38,471 nt of DNA from Bacteroidia bacterium (lineage in GTDB: Bacteria; Bacteroidota; Bacteroidia; Bacteroidales; VadinHA17), in NCBI GenBank assembly GCA_026391595.1, contig JAPLDY010000208.1, positions 1 through 38,471 of the forward strand, written 5' to 3'. The position numbers and the translations under genes were made by a program. The notes below the pieces were generated by a model. That model had not been told where the DNA came from and did not search any database. It saw only the letters and a program-made list of their open reading frames with translations. Below, piece by piece: positions 3,380-32,393 of the stretch (positions within the stretch are counted from its first letter, which is position 1; each line of letters opens with the position of its first letter).

Positions 3380-6061
3380 ATGAAAACGAAACTCTCCCTC
3401 ACCCTTCTTTTATCTTTTTCCTTTTATCTTTTGTCTTCTCAGGTGCCTCAGGGCTTCAACTACCAGGCAATTGCCCGTGACGGATCAGGCAATATTCTGG
3501 CTAATACACCTTTGCAGGCAATGATCTATATACAATCTTTATCAACAGGCGGAACTATCTTCTGGAAAGAACTGCACTCCTCCGTAACCACCAATAGCTT
3601 CGGGCTATTCACGCTTGTTATCGGGACAGGGACAAGGCAGACGGCCAGCACTGTTGCCACATTTGATCTTATTGACTGGAGTGTAACCCCAAAATATCTT
3701 TTCACTCAGATATATTATTCAGGTTCCTGGAAAGATATGGGAACCTCTCAGCTTTATACGGTTCCCTATGCCATGACGGCTAAAAGCCTTACCGGTACGG
3801 GAAAGCTTGGCATTAAGGGAACAACAACTGATCTTGAAGAGGCAATTTTTGAAGTTAAGAATAAGGACGGCCAGGTTATTTTCGCCGTTTACAATGAAGG
3901 AGTCCGCATATATGTTGATAACGGATCGAAAGGCACAAAGGGCGGTTTTGCTGTTGGAGGATTTGACCAGGCAAAAACATGGAACCAGGAACTTCTTCGT
4001 GTAACCGGCGACAGCACAAGGATTTATGTCAACCAGAATGCAAGCAAGGGTGTTAAAGGAGGTTTTGCAGTAGGCGGCTTCGATGGTTCTAAAGCAAATA
4101 CAGTTACCACTTTCACATCACTTACTCCGCAAAACTATTTTATTGGCCATGAAAGCGGGATTAAAACTTTACCCACTGTAAGTTCCGGTATATACAACTC
4201 ATTCTTTGGTTACCAGTCCGGAAAAGCCAATGTTTCAGGTATGAGCAACGTATTTATTGGTTACCAGTCTGGGATGGTAAATACAGCTTCAAACAATGTT
4301 TTTATTGGTTATCAGAGTGGTCTGTTCAACACATCCGGTAATAATAATATTTTTCTTGGATATCAATCAGGCTACACAAATATTGACGGAATCTTTAACA
4401 CTTTTATGGGTTATAGGTCAGGTTACTATAATGACCACGGTGACAGAAATGCATTTGTCGGGTATCGGTCTGGTTATTCAAATACTGATGGCGAATGGAA
4501 TGCGTTCTTTGGTTTTCAGGCTGGTTATGGTAATACTCTTGGTAATAATAATTCCTATTTCGGACAGAATACAGCCTTTTATTCAACTACGGCAATCAAT
4601 AACTCCTTCTTTGGCTACGAAGCAGGAATGAATAATCTCTCAGGAAGTAATAATACTTATATTGGCTACAGAGCCGGACATTCTGTTCTCAATGCAATAG
4701 CCTATGATAACGTAATGATAGGTCAGGATGTGGGGTATTCACTTTCCACAGGCCATGATAACATAAGCCTTGGAAACAAGGCAGGATATAGTTTAAATAC
4801 AGGTAATTACAACGTCTTTGTCGGTTCTGAAGCAGGTTATTCAAACCAGGATGGGCAATATAATACTTTTCTCGGGTACCAGGCAGGGAACAAAAATGTC
4901 GGAGGCGCCGGTACCTGGGAAGGTGAGTTTAATACATTCCTCGGATACCAGGCAGGATTTAACAGTACTTCGGGATACAGAAACATCGCCATAGGTTTCC
5001 AGGCCGGTTTTGGTTACACCACAAACCGATACAATGTATGTATAGGTGAACAGTCAGGATTTGCTTTGGATGCAGGACAGGCCAATGTGATTATTGGTAC
5101 TTATACCGGTAAACAAGTGAGCAGTGGTGAAGGAAATATCCTGCTTGGACTTGAATCTGGTTTAGCTGTAACTACTGCATCTTACAATGTAATGTTAGGC
5201 CATGCCGCAGGAAGATCAGCATCTGGCAGTGGTAATGTATTTATTGGCAAATATGCAGGATATGGTCAGTCAGGAGATAACCAGCTGGTAATTGAAAACA
5301 ATTACCTTGGTGCGGATAATGCGACTAATGCGTTGATCTATGGTGACTTTAATAGTAATTTATTACGGTTTAATGGTAGTGTTGGAGTCAATGCAATACC
5401 CGGTGCTGCCAAGCTGAACGTTGTGGACAATACAACGACCATTGCAGTAAGAGGAGAAACTTCCTGGGTCGGATCTACTGATCATTATGGGATATTTGGT
5501 GTTGGTGGCGGAAGCAGCGATTGGAATCATGGTGTTTATGGATCTGCATCCGGAGGAACACAGGCTTTTGGAGTTTGGGGAACAGCCTCAGGTGCTTCCA
5601 GCTATAATGTCGGAGTATTCGGTACTGCTTCTGGTCCAGGAAATGCTGCTGGATATTTTGCAGGACCTGTCACCGTGACAGGTGCATTTACGAACCCATC
5701 CGACCAAAACTTAAAGAAGGATATTCAACCGCTTTTTGGAGCTCTTGATAAGATACTTAGAGTACAAGGTGTGAGTTACCTCTGGAAATCGGAACAGGAG
5801 TTGGACGATTTTATACCCAACAAATCTTCAGATGGTAAGATGGGCGTCCATGAGAAATTTAATTTCCCTGAAGGAAAACAGATTGGTGTGATTGCTCAGG
5901 ACGTAGAAAAGGTGTTACCTGAGCTTGTTCAAACAGATGCCGATGGAATCAAATCTGTTGATTATATAAAAATGATACCTGTGCTTATTGAAGCTATGAA
6001 GGAGCAACAAAAGATGATAGAAGAACTTTCAGCTGAGATTGAGCAACTAAAGAACAAATAA
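3380..6061 (+). CDS. Exported modular fibre-like protein with C-terminal peptidase S74 chaperone domain
   Basis: 893 residues. A signal peptide (MKTKLSL...LLSSQ) is followed by a GFNYQAIARDGSG domain of a type common in Bacteroidota exported proteins. At about 150-235 a module FEVKNKDGQVIFAVY is followed by two KGGFAVGGFD elements. From about 265 to 635 there are some 21 imperfect repeats of 17-24 residues built on (F/I)(F/I/L)GYQSG and N-T-x-G, suggesting a beta-roll or trimeric shaft. The C-terminus has the S74 intramolecular chaperone signature SDQNLKKDI with Ser774 and Lys779 at the 5-residue spacing of the autocleavage dyad, then a short coiled coil (IEELSAEIEQLKNK). In phage fibres this domain trimerises the shaft and cuts itself off. 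Function here, probably surface attachment or structure, is inferred. No T9SS C-terminal signal is evident. Followed by a strong terminator. Confidence 0.88.
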   Translation: MKTKLSLTLLLSFSFYLLSSQVPQGFNYQAIARDGSGNILANTPLQAMIYIQSLSTGGTIFWKELHSSVTTNSFGLFTLVIGTGTRQTASTVATFDLIDWSVTPKYLFTQIYYSGSWKDMGTSQLYTVPYAMTAKSLTGTGKLGIKGTTTDLEEAIFEVKNKDGQVIFAVYNEGVRIYVDNGSKGTKGGFAVGGFDQAKTWNQELLRVTGDSTRIYVNQNASKGVKGGFAVGGFDGSKANTVTTFTSLTPQNYFIGHESGIKTLPTVSSGIYNSFFGYQSGKANVSGMSNVFIGYQSGMVNTASNNVFIGYQSGLFNTSGNNNIFLGYQSGYTNIDGIFNTFMGYRSGYYNDHGDRNAFVGYRSGYSNTDGEWNAFFGFQAGYGNTLGNNNSYFGQNTAFYSTTAINNSFFGYEAGMNNLSGSNNTYIGYRAGHSVLNAIAYDNVMIGQDVGYSLSTGHDNISLGNKAGYSLNTGNYNVFVGSEAGYSNQDGQYNTFLGYQAGNKNVGGAGTWEGEFNTFLGYQAGFNSTSGYRNIAIGFQAGFGYTTNRYNVCIGEQSGFALDAGQANVIIGTYTGKQVSSGEGNILLGLESGLAVTTASYNVMLGHAAGRSASGSGNVFIGKYAGYGQSGDNQLVIENNYLGADNATNALIYGDFNSNLLRFNGSVGVNAIPGAAKLNVVDNTTTIAVRGETSWVGSTDHYGIFGVGGGSSDWNHGVYGSASGGTQAFGVWGTASGASSYNVGVFGTASGPGNAAGYFAGPVTVTGAFTNPSDQNLKKDIQPLFGALDKILRVQGVSYLWKSEQELDDFIPNKSSDGKMGVHEKFNFPEGKQIGVIAQDVEKVLPELVQTDADGIKSVDYIKMIPVLIEAMKEQQKMIEELSAEIEQLKNK

Positions 6062-25289: not shown

Positions 25290-27065
25290 TCATACTGATT
25301 TCATATAATTGACAAGCCCCTTCTTGTCTAATATCTGCCTGAGCTTATCCGGTAACGGTTCAAAAGTGAATTTTCTTCTTCCAATGAGGATCTCTCCATT
25401 ATTAAAATCAATATCGACACCGTCACCAGGGGTATATGACTCCACAGCTTCCCTGTGAATAATAAGAGCCAGACCCTGGTTGATTGATGATCGGTAAAAT
25501 ATCCTGTTCACTGATTTGACTATCACTGCCTTTATCCCTGCAAACGCCAATCCTACAGAAGGATGCTCCCTTGAACTTCCGCAACCGAAATTATCACCTG
25601 CTATTATTATATCACCTTTTGATACATTCTTACTGAATGATGCATCAAAGTCTGCAAAAAGCAGAGGAAAAATGGACTCAGGGTCAGAACTCAATATACT
25701 ATAGGTAAGTTTACCGGCAAACATCTGGTCGGTGTTGAAATTATCAACATCAGCATAGTTCCAGATATTTCCGGATTTCCTGTTCTCCCCGGCTTTTATT
25801 TCAAAAGTTCTGCTCTGCTTAGCTTTAAATTGAAATTTTTCTACGCCTGGTTTATTACGAGGATCAGTGATGACTCCCGTAATTGCTGATGTTGCTACAG
25901 TAGCGGGAGAAGCAAGGTAGATTGATGCATCCTTGTTGCCCATTCTCCCGGGGAAATTACGGTTGGCTGTCGATATTACAGTGTGCCCGTTGGCTGGTAT
26001 CCCCTGTCCTGTACCAAGGCATGGACCACATGAGGGGGTGAGAACATTCGCCCCTGCTTTAACCAGTTCGCTGATAAGCCCTTCTTCAATTGCCGCCAGG
26101 TAAATCTCTCTTGACGCCGGTATAACATTCAGCTGGAATCCATCTTTTATATTTTTTCCTTTTAATATACCGGCAGCAATGCGGAGATCTTCAATCCTGC
26201 CGTTAGTACAGGTTCCAATTAGACCTTCATGAACAACCGTACCTGCCACCTCACCTACAGATTTTATATTATCAACGTTATGCGGTGCAGCTACAACCGG
26301 AAAAATCTCATCAAGATTTATTTCTATATCACTGAAGTACTTAGCTCCTTTATCAGCCCATACGCCACTGGTTTTTTCACTGAGAAAATCAGACAGGACC
26401 TTATCGACTGGAAAAACAGCATTTTTTGCACCCATTTCCGATGCCAGATTTGCGATAGTCATTCTGTCTGAAATATTCAGAGTTTCGACCCCTTTCCCGT
26501 GATATTCAATTGACATATAGTTGGCACCGTCAGAGCCTATCATACCTATAATCCAGAGTGCCAGATCCTTGGCTGAGACATTTTTATCAAGTTTGCCTGC
26601 AAGGGTTATCTTTATTGATTCCGGAACCCTGAACCATGTTTCGCCTCTCTTCCAGATACCAGCTGATTCTGTCCGGTCGATCCCTGCAGCAAAAGCATTG
26701 AAGGCACCTGCTGTAGAGGAATGGCTGTCACTGCCAACAATGAGCATACCTGGTTTTGCATGGTTAGCCATTAACTGGTGACATATTCCCCTTCCTGAAT
26801 CATAGAATTTTTTTATCCCCTGATTATGGACAATATCCCTTATATCCTGGTACTGGGTCGCAAGCTTGGAATCGGCTGGCGGTGCGTTATGGTCAAGAAC
26901 CACCAGTATTTGATCAGGATCAGCCACTTTATCACCTCCCATTTTCTTAAATGTATTGAAGATGCTGGCAGTATTGTCGTGGGTAAGGATTATATCAGGA
27001 CGTGCAAATACGATAGCTCCAGCCGGCGCTTTGAATATTTTTTCCGCAAAAGTTTGTGGAATCAT
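25290..27065 (-). CDS. Fused aconitase-family hydratase (isopropylmalate dehydratase-like), second copy
   Basis: 591 residues joining a LeuC-type large domain (about 1-410) and a LeuD-type swivel domain (about 430-591) normally made as two proteins. The [4Fe-4S] ligands are C286 (GTCTNGR) and C346/C349 (SCGPCLG); DSHSSTAG at 113-120 and GDNFGCGSSRE at 490-500 complete the active site. The family dehydrates and rehydrates hydroxy-acids. The TNG and SCGPCLG forms match the isopropylmalate/homoaconitase branch. No leuA or leuB is nearby, so the substrate is open. It follows the other fusion by 111 nt containing repeat elements. Confidence 0.9.
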   Translation of the reverse strand: MIPQTFAEKIFKAPAGAIVFARPDIILTHDNTASIFNTFKKMGGDKVADPDQILVVLDHNAPPADSKLATQYQDIRDIVHNQGIKKFYDSGRGICHQLMANHAKPGMLIVGSDSHSSTAGAFNAFAAGIDRTESAGIWKRGETWFRVPESIKITLAGKLDKNVSAKDLALWIIGMIGSDGANYMSIEYHGKGVETLNISDRMTIANLASEMGAKNAVFPVDKVLSDFLSEKTSGVWADKGAKYFSDIEINLDEIFPVVAAPHNVDNIKSVGEVAGTVVHEGLIGTCTNGRIEDLRIAAGILKGKNIKDGFQLNVIPASREIYLAAIEEGLISELVKAGANVLTPSCGPCLGTGQGIPANGHTVISTANRNFPGRMGNKDASIYLASPATVATSAITGVITDPRNKPGVEKFQFKAKQSRTFEIKAGENRKSGNIWNYADVDNFNTDQMFAGKLTYSILSSDPESIFPLLFADFDASFSKNVSKGDIIIAGDNFGCGSSREHPSVGLAFAGIKAVIVKSVNRIFYRSSINQGLALIIHREAVESYTPGDGVDIDFNNGEILIGRRKFTFEPLPDKLRQILDKKGLVNYMKSV

Positions 27066-27102
27066 AGTAATATTTTTTTTATTAATTCAATCTTGCCAAC
27101 AT

Positions 27103-27174
27103 GCCCCCAAATCCTTTATAGGGGACTCTTTATATTATCACGTACATTAAAGCCCCCTTCAGGAGGTTGGGGGC
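27103..27174. repeat. Two inverted copies of a C-tract/G-tract hairpin element
   Basis: Copy A at 27103-27126 (GCCCCC...GGGGAC) and copy B at 27152-27174 (GCCCCC-loop-GGGGGC) face each other. On the coding strand copy B begins 2 nt after the stop of the upstream aconitase gene and runs into CTTTAAT, as the element after moxR does. Possible weak terminator or processing site between the two fused genes. Confidence 0.55.
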
Positions 27175-27176
27175 AA

Positions 27177-28991
27177 TTATGCAAGCAATCCTCCACATAG
27201 GTAAATTTCATACTGTACCTCAGAAAAAGGCTCTGCTTTTGTTGTTTTACCGTTTCTCCGGTTTATTATTTCACCTGACTTAAGATTTACCTTCACTTCG
27301 TCTCCGTCGACCAAATCGAGATCGTTCAACGATTTACAAATGATGATCGGGAATGCAGCATTTATCGCATTCCTTTCATATATTGCCCCAAACGATTCAG
27401 CGATTATACCGCTGATGCCCAGTGAAATAAAGCAATCCACTGCCTGCTGTCTGGAACTGCCACTACCAAAGTTTTTCCCTGCAACGACTATATCGCCTGC
27501 TCCGGCTTTCTTTGCAAAGTCCTCGTACCCTTTAAGGTTGTCGAAAGTGTACTGACCCATTTCCTTAATCTCTGTAATCGCCAGATATTTATTATGAAAG
27601 ATCATGTCAGTATCGATATTATCTTTCTGTACAAGCCAGATTTTACCTTCTATTACTGAAGGTTTTTGAGATGTATCCCGTTTATGTGAAATTGTTCTTC
27701 CCGGGGATACTGCTTTTTCAGTCACTTTGAATTCCGAAGGTTTTGAAGGTATGCTGCCTGGTATTGTTATGTGTCCGGCAATGGCAGATGCAGCCACAAT
27801 TTCAGGAGATGCCAGGTAAACACTTCCCTTCCCCTGTTTACCGGGGAAATTCCGATTCCCGGTGCTGATAGTTATTTCACCCTGACCATTCTGCCCTACC
27901 TGGCCTGCAGCGCAACCTGCGCATCCCGCATTAGAGACCAGTGCTCCGGCCCTTTTGAAGATTTCCAGAAGTCCCTCATCCAAACACTTTTTCCATATTA
28001 AATCAGTAGCCGGAACTATTTTCAGGATAACACCAGGCGCCACTTTTCTGCCTTCAAGGATTGCAGCGGTCCTTTGCATATCTTCCATCCTCCCGTTGGT
28101 GCAGCTCCCGATAAACGCAGAGTCTATTTTAGTCCCCAGAACTGTTTTAATATCAACTGCATCGTGCGGTTCACCGGGCCGTGATATCAGTGGAACGAAC
28201 TCATCCACACTGAGGTCAATGGTTTTCTCATAAATTGCGTCAGCGTCAGCATAAACCGGGATAAAGCTCCTTTTTGAATGCTGCCGGCAATAACTGATCA
28301 CTTCTTCAGATGGTGGGAAAAGGATTATTATAGCTCCCATTTCGGTGGCCATTGATGATATTGTAATTCTTTCATCAAGCGTCATTTTTTCGATACATAT
28401 GCCATATAGTTCTATAGAATATCCAAGAAGGGTATTGGCACCAAATATCTTCAGAAGGTTGAGAATAAAATCTTTTGCCGATATGTCTTTTCCTGGATCA
28501 CCTTTACAATTTATCTTAACTGACTGAGGCACCTTGAACCATATCTTTCCCTTATTCCATGCTGCAGCTATATCCATATCTCCCATGCCCTGGCCAAATG
28601 CACCAACAGCTCCAAGAATATTTGCATGGGAATCTGTAGATACTGCTGTTGACCCGGGAACGACATACCCCTGATCGATCATGATATGAGTGCCTATGCC
28701 GGCATCAATATCATGAACATTTATTCCATTTTCACGGGCGAAAAGCCTGCAAATATGCTGATTCACCGCGTACTTTTGGTCGGATCCCGTAGGATTACAG
28801 TCGAACGTAAAGAGTGTCTTTTCCGCATCTTCAACTGAAAGTCCATGATCCCTGATATTCTTTACCACACTGGCACCTCCGAAATCACGTGCAGCCCTTA
28901 TGTCTATTTCAATGTCGACAATCTGACCGGGGCATACCGAATCGAATTTTGAATGTGATGCCAGTATTTTTTCAAGCAATGTCATTGACAT
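27177..28991 (-). CDS. Fused aconitase-family hydratase (isopropylmalate dehydratase-like), first copy
   Basis: 604 residues, the same large-plus-small fusion as its neighbour but clearly diverged. Cluster ligands C297 (GSCTNGRMED) and C357/C360 (AGCAGCAAG), DSHAN motif at 120-124, swivel-domain motif GKNFGSGSSRQQ near 500-510. The AGCAGCAAGQ form differs from the SCGPCLG of the other copy, suggesting different substrates rather than simple redundancy. Starts 47 nt after the AraC gene on the same strand and is probably co-transcribed with it or controlled by it. True aconitase, 2,3-dimethylmalate dehydratase and isopropylmalate isomerase are all possible by family. Confidence 0.9.
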   Translation of the reverse strand: MSMTLLEKILASHSKFDSVCPGQIVDIEIDIRAARDFGGASVVKNIRDHGLSVEDAEKTLFTFDCNPTGSDQKYAVNQHICRLFARENGINVHDIDAGIGTHIMIDQGYVVPGSTAVSTDSHANILGAVGAFGQGMGDMDIAAAWNKGKIWFKVPQSVKINCKGDPGKDISAKDFILNLLKIFGANTLLGYSIELYGICIEKMTLDERITISSMATEMGAIIILFPPSEEVISYCRQHSKRSFIPVYADADAIYEKTIDLSVDEFVPLISRPGEPHDAVDIKTVLGTKIDSAFIGSCTNGRMEDMQRTAAILEGRKVAPGVILKIVPATDLIWKKCLDEGLLEIFKRAGALVSNAGCAGCAAGQVGQNGQGEITISTGNRNFPGKQGKGSVYLASPEIVAASAIAGHITIPGSIPSKPSEFKVTEKAVSPGRTISHKRDTSQKPSVIEGKIWLVQKDNIDTDMIFHNKYLAITEIKEMGQYTFDNLKGYEDFAKKAGAGDIVVAGKNFGSGSSRQQAVDCFISLGISGIIAESFGAIYERNAINAAFPIIICKSLNDLDLVDGDEVKVNLKSGEIINRRNGKTTKAEPFSEVQYEIYLCGGLLA

Positions 28992-29038
28992 AGTCTGTAT
29001 ATTTAAAGATAGAAGCTCTTAAGCAAACAGTAGCTAAA

Positions 29039-29893
29039 TTATTTAAACTGAGCCCTATAGTCACGCGGTGAAATACCTTCAGTTTTCCGGAATTGCTTAT
29101 TAAAGTTTGATATGCTGCCGAAACCACATTCAATAGCGATATCATGGACCTGGTATTCAGTTTCACGAAGAAGATAGCAAGCTTTATTAGTTCTGACACG
29201 ATTAAGATATTCAACAAAACCGGCACCACAGTTCTTTTTAAAAAAACGGCTGAAGGCGAAGGGGCTCATATGCGCAATTTTGGAAATCTTTTCAAGAGTC
29301 ACAGGCTTGAAATAGTTCTCTCTGATATAGGTATATACTTCAGCCATCCTCTTGTTTCCTCTTTCATCGTATGCCTGCTTGTAATTCTCTGAGCATAGCA
29401 ACACCTTTTTCTCAGCACTGCACATGATCCTGAGGACACTGAAAAAATCAATCATTTTATCGATCCCCCTGTTACTGATCATCTGTACCAGATGTTTCTC
29501 AGCTTTTTTGGCATCTTCGGTAGAAAACCCAATTCCTCTTTCGGCCAGGTTCATAAGTTCACGGACGCAATGAAGTTCATGCTGGGCGAGCAAAGCGTCA
29601 CCAAGCGACGACTGCCTGAAATGGAGCATTATGCCGTGTTTTTCCGGAAGGCTTTTATCGCTTTTATAATAGTTCCAGGAATGAGGGATCTTACCCCCGA
29701 TCAGAACCATATCATATTGATCGAAGAGCTCCACACTATCGCCTACTATCCGTGTTCCGTTGCTTTTTATATTAAGAACGATCTCATATTCCGGATGGAA
29801 ATGCCATAATCCTCCGGTATCGTTTATATATTCAGCTATAAATCCCCCATTGTCGGTATATGATATCTGTTCAAGCTCCGCAACCATCGGCAA
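29039..29893 (-). CDS. AraC-family transcriptional regulator
   Basis: 284 residues. N-terminal cupin-like sensing domain (WHFHPEYEIVLNIKSNGTR, GGKIPHSWN) and a C-terminal double helix-turn-helix at about 185-284 (VTLEKISKIAHMSPFAFSRFF; VHDIAIECGFGSISNFNKQF). Members bind a small molecule through the cupin and activate nearby genes. It lies just upstream of the two fused hydratases, the most likely targets; the ligand may be a carbohydrate or an organic acid. Confidence 0.92.
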   Translation of the reverse strand: MPMVAELEQISYTDNGGFIAEYINDTGGLWHFHPEYEIVLNIKSNGTRIVGDSVELFDQYDMVLIGGKIPHSWNYYKSDKSLPEKHGIMLHFRQSSLGDALLAQHELHCVRELMNLAERGIGFSTEDAKKAEKHLVQMISNRGIDKMIDFFSVLRIMCSAEKKVLLCSENYKQAYDERGNKRMAEVYTYIRENYFKPVTLEKISKIAHMSPFAFSRFFKKNCGAGFVEYLNRVRTNKACYLLRETEYQVHDIAIECGFGSISNFNKQFRKTEGISPRDYRAQFK

Positions 29894-29914
29894 ATTTCAA
29901 CTTATGATGCTTAC

Positions 29915-29922
29915 CAAATTTA
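29915..29922 (-). promoter_or_regulatory. Putative -7 element of the AraC-hydratase operon
   Basis: Minus-strand TAAATTTG matches TAnnTTTG, 22 nt upstream of the AraC start. No TTTG at -33. An activator-dependent promoter would fit a weak -33. Confidence 0.4.
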
Positions 29923-29966
29923 CATTTAATTCACCAATTTCTGTTGCAGTGTGATTTAATATTTTA

Positions 29967-30007
29967 TTTGAATTATTTGGATGATTGATTTAATTTTGAT
30001 AAATTTG
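29967..30007 (+). promoter_or_regulatory. Two overlapping promoters driving the small RNA
   Basis: Two complete matches to the Bacteroidota promoter, offset by 9 nt: TTTG 29967-29970, 20 nt, TAATTTTG 29991-29998; and TTTG 29976-29979, 20 nt, TAAATTTG 30000-30007. They point away from the divergent AraC gene and end just before the structured region, predicting a start near 30012. No coding frame follows until 30329. Confidence 0.65.
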
Positions 30008-30012
30008 TTATC

Positions 30013-30219
30013 AAGCTCATGCTATTGGTATAAGAGGAGATGAGCAAGGGTTGGGAGTGGAAATCAACAGGATTGTATTGCAGACATTGACTTTCACATC
30101 AGGAACCTTAGGAATAGCGCCAGCTTACCATGGTTCCATCCTATTATCAGACAGTAGACACGGGAATTAAAAAACCCGCACCTGATTTTCACAACCACCC
30201 TTCCTCCTCTTATTTTTTA
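30013..30219 (+). ncRNA. Predicted structured small RNA, 6S-like architecture
   Basis: A roughly 205-nt stretch between promoter and T-run. The two ends pair over a long distance: 30030-30039 with 30204-30213 (10 bp), 30046-30054 with 30195-30202 (8 bp, one bulge), 30057-30066 with 30183-30192 (10 bp, one G-T), then 30070-30071 with 30181-30182. The centre is open and holds a terminal hairpin GGAACC (30102-30107)/GGTTCC (30132-30137) and a small hairpin CGGG/CCCG (30161-30178) on the 3' side. The closing stem is followed by TTTTTT at 30213-30218. A long bulged rod with a central bubble, a side hairpin and about 185 nt between stem ends is the layout of 6S RNA, the RNA-polymerase-binding regulator. 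That identity is inference from shape only. Confidence 0.55.
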
Positions 30220-30268
30220 TTATATCTCAATCTGACATCTTAATAATCTATTGTAAATGATAATACGT

Positions 30269-30276
30269 TATCTTTG
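30269..30276 (+). promoter_or_regulatory. Putative -7 element of the BioG gene
   Basis: TATCTTTG matches TAnnTTTG, 53 nt before the BioG ATG and downstream of the small-RNA T-run, suggesting BioG has its own promoter. No clear TTTG at the right distance upstream. Confidence 0.4.
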
Positions 30277-30328
30277 TGCCTCTGATGCTGAATCAAATGC
30301 ATTTTCTTAAAATTCAGCTGCCTGTATT

Positions 30329-31063
30329 ATGAAGACCTACATAAGACGGAGAGAAAAAAACGATCAGCTTGTTGTTATGTACGGCGGATGGGGAACAGAC
30401 GAAAATTTCTTTGCCCCATATTGCAACGATGAATTTGATTTCATTCTCTTCTCAAATTACTCTGCTGATGATCCCCTTGTTCTTCCCGAAATGAAGACAT
30501 ACAAGAAGATTGTACTTATAGGATGGTCGCTGGGTGTTTGGGCTGCCGAGTATCTCTCTCCAAAAACAGGTATTAAAGCAAATGTGACTATAGCGGTAAA
30601 TGGAACCCCTGTACCTGCTGATGACAAATACGGTATCCCGCTTCATGTCTTTGAAGGAACACTAAATAACATCGCAGAAATAAACATGGAAAAGTTCTAT
30701 CTGAGGATGTTTGGTGACAAGAAAACCTATGAACTGAACAAGGATAAAGTGCCACAACGTTCAATAAAATCGCTTCATGACGAGCTCCGATGGATGTACA
30801 ACAGGATTATGGAACAGTCTGAACCCGGCTTCAGGTGGGATTATGCGGTTACAAGCGAGATTGACCGCATTTTTCCTAAGGACAATGTGAATTCTTACTG
30901 GAAAAAACATAGATCTACCCGTCATATAAGTATCCCGATGCCTCATTATTTCTTCCATAACTGGACATCCTACGACGATTTCATAAGGTTCGTAGAAAGC
31001 CATAAAAAGAAAAGATCATATATTAAGAAGGGTGCAGCAGCTCTTGTTTCTACAAATCCCTGA
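30329..31063 (+). CDS. bioG: BioG-type pimeloyl-ACP methyl ester esterase (DUF452)
   Basis: 244 residues, usual for BioG. An alpha/beta hydrolase with nucleophile elbow GWSLG (S67), an oxyanion MYGGWG segment at 17-22, a probable acid at D179 (EIDRIFP) and histidine(s) in MPHYFFH (H206 or H210). BioG removes the methyl group from pimeloyl-ACP methyl ester at the end of the BioC pathway, giving the biotin precursor. No other bio gene is in the window. Its end overlaps the convergent YihY gene by 14 nt. Confidence 0.85.
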   Translation: MKTYIRRREKNDQLVVMYGGWGTDENFFAPYCNDEFDFILFSNYSADDPLVLPEMKTYKKIVLIGWSLGVWAAEYLSPKTGIKANVTIAVNGTPVPADDKYGIPLHVFEGTLNNIAEINMEKFYLRMFGDKKTYELNKDKVPQRSIKSLHDELRWMYNRIMEQSEPGFRWDYAVTSEIDRIFPKDNVNSYWKKHRSTRHISIPMPHYFFHNWTSYDDFIRFVESHKKKRSYIKKGAAALVSTNP

Positions 31064-32393
31064 TGAGGATATTTGAATCAGATTTTGAAGCAAGTTTTTC
31101 GAATTTGTCGAGCATTGCCACTACGCGGTTATATTCCTCATTCTTGATAACTATCTTCTGATCAGGACCCTTTCTGTCAAGCCTGGACAATACGTAACTT
31201 ACTGAAAGCTTATTAATGTCAAGAGCCGGCTGATATAATCTTTCCTTTTGTTCGTTTTCATGAATAACCGAGACAAGATTGACGTTGCTGAGGTCTTGCA
31301 ATATATCTCTGGCAAGACGAACAGGTATCTTCAGTGCTTTGGAAATAGCTTCAGCACTTATTGGTTTTTCACCAACACTGAAATTCCTTATTATCATATG
31401 CATGATCATGAGAATCAGAGCACGTTTCTGAAAATGGCTTATATTAAGAGCTTCAGATTCAAATTCGTAACGTGATACATTCTGGTTTGCGAATGATAAT
31501 TCAGCACCAAGCAGAATCACAAGCCAGCTGGTCTGAAGCAGAATAATAAACAGAGGTACAGCCGCAAGAGTCCCATAGATTAAACTCAATTTTGTTATAC
31601 CGAATTGAAGGTCTAAATAGAGCCATTGTAAAATCATGAGGGCAGTTCCTGCAATGATCCCTGAGATAAGGGCAGGTACAAGCTTCACCTTGGCGTTGGG
31701 CATTACGATGAACAACAGGGTAAGTAAAATCCATACAAGTAAATATGGCGCAAGTTTTATGAGAAAACCTACTATAGGTTTGAAAAATGCCAGGATAGGT
31801 GCTTTCTCCATAACATCTGGCAGCGCAGTGCTTACAAAAACCATTATACTGCTTGCAAGGACCAGAAATATCGGAGCAATGAGCATTATAGTAAGGTAAT
31901 CAGTGAACTTCCTGTACCATGGCCTTGAACTTGAGATCTGCCAGATGTGATTAAAGGAGGTTTCTATCTGGTTAAGCAATGAAATAACCGACCAGAAGAG
32001 GATTATTACACCAATACCTGCAATATATCCCCCGCTTGTTGACTGAACCGTATTTTTAGCCTTATCTAGCAAAGGCTGCAGTACTCCGCTATTAGATTGG
32101 AACTCCTTTGAATTAGCGATCATTGTTTCCAGGTTCTGATCAAGACCAAATCCCTTTGCAATGGCAAGCGCAATGGCCACAACAGGAATAATTGCAAGAA
32201 GAGTCCAAAGAGAAAGAGCTGCTGCGCGGATCTGGACCTTGTCATTCAAAAATCCTTTTCCGGCAAGAAGCATGATCCTTAGCTGTTTTATCAGAAAACT
32301 CTTCCTTTTCGATAATTCATAGAGTGGAGTATGCCAGATAAGATCGTTCCACTCTTTTACCTGCTTAAATGCCCATGCTACAGGATTTGCCAT
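31050..32393 (-). CDS. YihY/BrkB-family inner-membrane protein
   Basis: 447 residues. Six transmembrane helices in about 50-310 with the family core (AAALSLWTLLAIIPVVAIAL; WSVISLLNQIETSFNHIW; KLSLIYGTLAAVPLFIILL), then a cytosolic tail of about 130 residues with a winged-helix-like part (ISAEAISKALKIPVRLARDI). The family was once called RNase BN by mistake; its transport or structural role is not established. The longer C-terminal extension is common in Bacteroidota. Confidence 0.92.
   Translation of the reverse strand: MANPVAWAFKQVKEWNDLIWHTPLYELSKRKSFLIKQLRIMLLAGKGFLNDKVQIRAAALSLWTLLAIIPVVAIALAIAKGFGLDQNLETMIANSKEFQSNSGVLQPLLDKAKNTVQSTSGGYIAGIGVIILFWSVISLLNQIETSFNHIWQISSSRPWYRKFTDYLTIMLIAPIFLVLASSIMVFVSTALPDVMEKAPILAFFKPIVGFLIKLAPYLLVWILLTLLFIVMPNAKVKLVPALISGIIAGTALMILQWLYLDLQFGITKLSLIYGTLAAVPLFIILLQTSWLVILLGAELSFANQNVSRYEFESEALNISHFQKRALILMIMHMIIRNFSVGEKPISAEAISKALKIPVRLARDILQDLSNVNLVSVIHENEQKERLYQPALDINKLSVSYVLSRLDRKGPDQKIVIKNEEYNRVVAMLDKFEKLASKSDSNILIRDL

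Follow-up and report, generated by a model that had tools for sequence, protein, structure and literature searches.

A predicted structured RNA gene of apparent bioF descent lies upstream of bioG in a family of Bacteroidales

The stretch of DNA analysed here (the window) comprises 38,471 nucleotides (nt) of contig JAPLDY010000208.1 in the assembly GCA_026391595.1 of a Bacteroidia bacterium (Bacteroidales; VadinHA17). Between the divergent gene of an AraC-type regulator (29039–29893, minus strand) and bioG (30329–31063, plus strand; Pfam BioG, E = 2.9e-34) lies a gap of 435 nt, in which an original prediction, made from the letters of the window, had placed an unannotated structured RNA of 6S-like layout at 30013–30219. 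Folding of 30013–30219 bore out a structured element in this gap: its free energy of −59.1 kcal/mol compares with −45.5 ± 4.3 kcal/mol for 200 dinucleotide shuffles (z = −3.19), none of which folded as well. The element lies on the plus strand and is termed type 1 RNA; as set out below, it recurs in the family, shows covariation and appears to derive from bioF.

The RNA is laid out, in the predicted folds, as a branched junction rather than as the bubble with two hairpins that had been proposed; the long outer stem of that proposal was retained, with four hairpins inside it in the minimum-energy fold and three in the centroid. In the outer stem P1, 30032–30039 pairs with 30204–30211 (helix 1), and both sides have changed in seven of the eight pairs in alignment A4, which holds 73 copies. 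The strand 30057–30066 has two possible partners, 30183–30192 according to the minimum-energy fold and the 3′ half of motif A according to the consensus fold. Motif A itself, a stretch of 23 nt at 30075–30097, stands out by its sequence identity across copies. It is followed by hairpin P3 (30102–30137), variable in sequence with 90–99% of its cells paired (helices 5–7), by the nearly invariant motif B (30142–30158), unpaired in the consensus fold, and by hairpin P4 (30161–30178; helix 8), which is 90% paired with little variation. All of these features are on the plus strand.

An Rfam scan of the window at gathering score yielded tRNA only and left the RNA region without a match, and a permissive scan of 29880–30340 gave two matches, both at chance level. 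A DNA similarity search revealed the RNA in 24 of 41 genomes, the own genome included, these being 24 of the 25 genomes of one genus. With a covariance model made from 22 genus copies, it was found in 80 of 117 family genomes and in six of 15 genera, where one genome (G074) contributed a short hairpin only.

For the alignments, 87 stretches were fetched by the motif A pattern. Three covariance-model copies were absent from that scan as judged by bit-score matching, namely those of the own genome, G005 and G075, the latter two having N at motif A. Alignment A1 holds 22 of the 24 genus copies, the N-damaged L018 and L021 being left out. Reverse-strand type 1 matches were ignored. Alignment A3 combines 65 of the 77 type 1 matches with the copy from the window; excluded were L099, L112, L124, L153 and L173, which had bit scores equal to kept ones, the truncated or gapped L088, L113, L126, L140, L161 and L164, and, without a reason, L132. 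Loci were tied to genomes (G090, G112, G015) and to genus g30 by matching bit scores. Runs of N inside the RNA occur in the draft copies L018, L025, L164 and L296, possibly because the hairpins break assemblies.

Compensating changes, which had been suggested as a check on the RNA, were found in the orthologous regions. Across 68 distinct sequences, 96.0% of the pair cells were standard and both sides had changed in 22 of 39 pairs, a result reached by none of 500 shuffles; this alignment had been fitted to the structure. Controls in which the partners were slid by one to three columns gave 44–60% paired cells and 6–10 pairs with both-side changes, and the genus alignment that had not been fitted to the structure gave both-side changes in eight of the 39 pairs. 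Hairpin P3 and the outer stem with its continuation contribute most of the covariation.

Motifs A and B are nearly frozen across copies. Motif A was identical in all 22 copies of A1, which had been chosen by whole-region DNA similarity, and in every one of the 30 loci retrieved with the covariance model; it was intact in 23 of 24 blastn loci, the exception being a run of N. All 66 A3 copies agree in it as well, an identity that is partly built in, as 65 of them had been fetched by the motif A pattern. For motif B, 71 of the 77 type 1 loci have exact TATCAGACAGTAGA, a count in which truncated and gapped loci were considered too. The pairing of motif A with 30057–30066 (helix 3) shows no both-side change; motif A never varies. 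A pairing switch at 30057–30066 was considered and is possible within the genus; in other genera the pairing with the 3′ arm is, by eye, lost.

The promoter and the plus-strand T-run that had been described around the RNA were both recovered. Upstream, on the plus strand, TTTG at 29976–29979 (−33 element) is followed after 20 nt by TAAATTTG at 30000–30007 (−7 element, pattern TAnnTTTG), and we take this TTTG-N20-TAAATTTG arrangement to be the Bacteroidota promoter consensus. Among the 77 type 1 loci, 73 have TAnnTTTG ahead of the RNA, and four, which share one RNA bit score, read TTAATTTG instead; 12% of shuffled upstream regions contain a TAnnTTTG by chance. A TTTG or TTG was located 17–22 nt before TAnnTTTG in 67 of the 68 distinct RNA copies. 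Directly 3′ of the outer stem, the run TTTTTT at 30213–30218 completes a predicted intrinsic terminator, and T-runs were seen by eye at this place in nearly all A3 copies, with L142 as an exception.

Given the lack of an Rfam match, the conservation, the compensating changes and the promoter at 73 of 77 loci, 30013–30219 is, as judged from sequence, a conserved RNA gene, and the claim of an unannotated structured RNA gene is supported. That the arms might be the ends of a multi-copy mobile repeat, an outcome that would have spoken against the RNA, was dismissed for the complete RNA, which occupies one syntenic place; motif A alone recurs elsewhere. A peptide or leader peptide was set aside: the short open reading frames differ between genera by eye, and some frame is open from end to end in four of 66 copies.

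The 6S identity read from the layout was not confirmed. In this explanation, the RNA would be the 6S RNA of the group, a promoter mimic that binds RNA polymerase and serves as a template for pRNAs, and it does resemble 6S RNA (RF00013; RF01685, 6S-Flavo) in its size of about 200 nt, its long terminator-closed stem and its own promoter. RF00013 matched in none of 41 genomes, with five of 14 controls being positive. RF01685 gave no match in the own genome, and all 14 controls were silent too, so that this result is weak by itself. Because RF01685 alone was silent in both, a Bacteroidota 6S model (R2) was built from a class-wide search, in which RF01685 matched in 21 of 296 genomes at E ≤ 0.01, four of them over the cut-off; R2 rests on 12 such matches, eight of which were below the Rfam cut-off.

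6S RNA is characterised by one unbranched rod, the central bubble of which mimics an open promoter. R2 describes a rod without branch points, whereas P3 and P4 make the consensus fold of the RNA a branched junction. With this model, 77 of the 117 family genomes revealed a separate one-copy locus about 215 nt long, and 55 of the 80 RNA-bearing genomes also possess such a locus, at different places (e.g., positions 138309 and 192910 in G013:C36). All 30 fetched R2 loci and all 12 sequences of the R2 model contain AAACTCAAC. The own genome is not among the 77 and gave no R2 match with the strict filters (as used over 40 genomes). On the window at 29000–31200, R2 with filters off scored at most 8.8 bits, and at most 2.8 bits over the RNA. 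With no match to either Rfam family, a candidate 6S locus elsewhere in relatives, a branched fold and a sequence that derives from bioF, it is extremely improbable that the RNA is 6S RNA, and this identity was rejected.

Bacteroides thetaiotaomicron has a 6S RNA according to PMC7366714. In the family, the candidate 6S locus (L262–L291) has the form TTGCCCGCAT...AAACTCAAC...GGGGTTTT, and the two candidate loci scanned (L265, L278) had no Rfam match at gathering score. As a by-product, the family thereby gains a candidate 6S locus, which our Rfam searches had failed to supply.

The descent of the RNA became apparent outside the family. A search of 392 genomes of the order returned ten with a match, three from the own genus and seven from outside the family. 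Among these seven, five match the model along its full length and fall within coding bioF frames of 376 to 393 residues. In a frameshift-tolerant comparison with three BioF proteins, the typed genus consensus scored 147, 144 and 137 and the window RNA 106, 98 and 79, compared with at most 35 for shuffle controls (60 each, against one BioF only). Copies of two other genera scored up to 92 and 58, with shuffles reaching at most 39. For a related enzyme of the family itself, the scores were 74 (consensus) and 40 (window), values obtained without shuffles.

Translated in the former BioF frame, motif A gives C-I-A-D-I-D-F-H, and the consensus gives Y-L-I-N-K-T-R-S-L-I-F-T-T-T-L-P-P in its 3′ part. 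The RNA is homologous to an internal stretch of bioF, approximately from residues AHAIG to TTxLPP, in a reading that requires frameshifts. Because five of the seven outside matches are coding bioF genes and the frameshift-tolerant scores go beyond those of shuffles, the RNA is, by these comparisons, a descendant of bioF (8-amino-7-oxononanoate synthase). It shares with bioF its sequence ancestry and its operon place and differs from it in having no conserved reading frame. The flanking genes had been regarded as two unrelated protein genes, with which this origin disagrees, bioF being the operon partner of bioG in other Bacteroidales: at two of the five outside bioF loci, bioG follows bioF directly (within about 30 nt), and a gene for a BioC-like methyltransferase comes next. 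Gene names at these loci were read by eye, except for bioG.

Several observations speak against this descent or against the loss of bioF. The remaining two outside matches are a low-complexity stretch, which scores as well as the bioF ones, and a match of 34 nt. Pfam did not recognise a hand-joined, short BioF-like reading. Three of the five outside bioF loci lack a following bioG, two having a BioD-like frame next and one neither. No bioF (TIGR00858) exceeded the curated cut-off in any of the 117 family genomes; the best match, at 405 versus 426 bits, nearly reached it, and the loss of bioF leans on this cut-off and on the 30 best matches, which were assigned by eye to other enzymes within the superfamily. 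A weaker true bioF may be present in the family.

For bioB (TIGR00433), no family genome exceeded the cut-off either (0 of 117; best 98.8 versus 225 bits). A biotin riboswitch was considered and dropped, there being no supporting evidence for it and no bioB over cut-off in the family. The bioG gene at 30329–31063 is kept, with its GWSLG motif, in this family without a biotin synthase over cut-off.

A neutral, functionless bioF pseudogene in decay would account for the bioF origin, the frame breaks and the apparent loss of the pathway. Such decay is strongly contradicted by the compensating changes; moreover, promoter and terminator are conserved, and motif A is unchanged both in the 22 copies not selected for it and in 17 loci of genus g30, which had been fetched by the motif. 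These 17 loci encode BioG proteins 56–58% identical to that of the window. We regard mere decay as highly improbable.

The relation to bioG was analysed at the 77 type 1 loci. Same-strand bioG lies downstream of the RNA in 67 of them and opposite-strand bioG in none; of the other ten, at least eight end, or their fetched stretch ends, near the RNA, as judged by coordinates. Over the 117 genomes, 75 contain both RNA and bioG, five the RNA only, two bioG only and 35 neither (Fisher p = 5e-22, ignoring kinship). Two of the five RNA-only genomes (G117, G126) and both bioG-only genomes (G118, G130) have the respective gene at or near a contig end. The start of bioG was located in 51 of the 68 copies.

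Riboswitch and attenuator leaders combine a conserved junction with a terminator before a gene, and the RNA resembles them in both respects, lying directly before the gene in one genus. It could accordingly be a cis-acting leader of bioG, in which transcription would begin at the promoter of the RNA and halt at the P1 terminator unless read-through were favoured by the binding of a ligand, a protein or an RNA to the junction of motifs A and B. The same-strand order at 67 of 77 loci, the joint presence in 75 of 117 genomes and the alternative pairing of 30057–30066 fit such a leader, as does the layout in genus g30, where 10–15 nt, with no second promoter site, separate the last T-run from the start of bioG. 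That alternative pairing shows no both-side changes, however, and a second TAnnTTTG site, a candidate bioG promoter, lies at 30269–30276 of the plus strand in the window; TAnnTT[TC]G was found before bioG in 24 of the 33 RNA–bioG gaps longer than 60 nt, a count made without a shuffle control.

The RNA is also kept without the gene. It lies upstream of bioG nearly always, with three exceptions: G090/L143, where bioG is broken, G112/L157, where it is gone, and G015, where it is located on another contig. In G015, the separated bioG has its own promoter-like site and is situated on a contig of 3166 nt that starts in a repeat. A repeat-like CCCCCTGCCTTCGCAAGGC... was observed on the downstream side of the RNA and again on the upstream side of the detached bioG (L292, L293), as if it had mediated the separation or the contig break.

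Loci of type III toxin–antitoxin systems are laid out as RNA, terminator and protein, and the g30 layout together with the co-inheritance would also suit a bipartite module made up of the RNA and BioG. An esterase function is predicted for BioG, though, no tandem repeats were seen in the RNA, and the RNA persists without bioG; a module of this kind is very unlikely.

Motif A extends beyond the locus. A search for base-pairing targets with 31 nt and up to three mismatches in 41 genomes yielded 26 places that we read as motif A copies. The 15-nt pattern also matched L178, L186, L197, L199, L200 and L204, coding genes by eye, which were read as chance. In some genomes, motif A occurs in shorter hairpins, often with a stem AAGGCGACACT...AGTGTCGCCTT and a T-run. 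Most of these copies have it in a loop closed by a terminator-like stem, the folds of L201 and L055 being less clear. These short hairpins have no common neighbour gene, and TAnnTTTG lies within 180 nt upstream in only three of 12. In G074, which has no BioG match, the motif A hairpin stands beside ssb-like and ParA-like frames (by eye).

Dispersed hairpins like AAGGCGACACT/AGTGTCGCCTT, with motif A or a variant as the loop, were noted at L087, L119, L170, L171, L172, L028, L180, L203 and L195. They are often followed by a second hairpin with a stem like GAGGCGGTACT and a conserved loop (AGCACGAGG...GCAGCGAGACATAT), and those scanned had no Rfam match. On the viral contig L174 (IMGVR_UViG_3300025000_000084), motif A, at 4124–4145, forms part of the loop of a terminator-like hairpin that is rich in G+C and lies between predicted frames. 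The recurrence of motif A suggests, as the simplest inference, a shared binding partner.

Since the RNA persists after the loss of bioG and motif A is also found where bioG is absent, we favour a stand-alone gene over a bioG leader: the element is probably, as far as its sequence allows us to say, an independent gene for a structured RNA, formed in situ from bioF, and has a putative trans-acting role through motifs A and B. This judgement is held with moderate confidence, and a leader of bioG is the less likely explanation, which we still take seriously. The stand-alone character that had been proposed is supported by the own promoter, the terminator, the second promoter-like site in most longer gaps and the survival without bioG, and is called into question by three points. 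Near-perfect co-inheritance with bioG is not needed by a purely trans-acting RNA; in the 17 g30 loci, the spacing is short and lacks a second promoter site; and at one g1 locus bioG starts 12 nt after the last T-run.

In the course of events that we propose, the ancestor would have had the order bioF–bioG, the biotin pathway would have been lost, and a remnant of bioF would have been kept as an RNA. Motifs A and B may then be presented in a terminator-closed loop to a common partner, either an RNA-binding protein or another RNA, with the short motif A hairpins and the viral copy as further users or decoys of this putative partner. Where bioG starts right after the terminator, as in g30, the RNA may also set bioG transcription by read-through.

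The surroundings of the RNA were compared at 88 loci, made up of the 77 with type 1 RNA and 11 without. An AraC gene lies upstream on the opposite strand in 62 of them and yihY is present in 60. In the window, 25290–28991 of the minus strand contains, by eye, two adjoining aconitase-type genes of 591 and 604 amino acids, the second of which is near the RNA in 52 of the 88 loci.

Among known systems, riboswitch and attenuator leaders differ from the RNA in that it is also kept without the gene and that most longer gaps contain a second promoter site. The small RNAs FopS and GibS of Bacteroides (PMC11697453) are similar in being multi-copy RNAs of Bacteroidota with one conserved unpaired stretch and a terminator; in the bioF-derived RNA, the conserved stretch lies inside a terminator-closed loop. 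According to the same paper, FopS has been deposited in Rfam. Membership in the FopS family was rejected on account of this different layout and of the missing Rfam match, the presence of FopS in the Rfam copy used being unchecked. Conserved long non-coding RNAs of mammals that are reported to be fossils of protein genes (PMC5577775) likewise go back to a dead protein-coding gene; the RNA described here differs from them in being bacterial, compact, strongly structured and situated at the place of a lost operon gene.

Literature searches on Bacteroidota 6S RNA, FopS, pseudogene-derived RNAs and bioG or bioF together with RNA returned, in the collection of papers covered, nothing on this RNA, the last topic being swamped by "biofilm" matches. 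To our knowledge, the origin of new structured RNAs is rarely visible in bacteria.

The findings raise the question of what role BioG has in a family without a biotin synthase over cut-off, and of what binds a 23-nt loop that hardly varies and recurs in mobile hairpins. We tentatively consider that a dead enzyme gene may have become, in place, an essential-looking structured RNA, whose frozen, bioF-derived loop would be the site of an RNA-binding system used by mobile elements and a virus. With ancestor, place, promoter, terminator and dozens of descendants all readable, the step from enzyme gene to RNA would be traceable base by base in this family.
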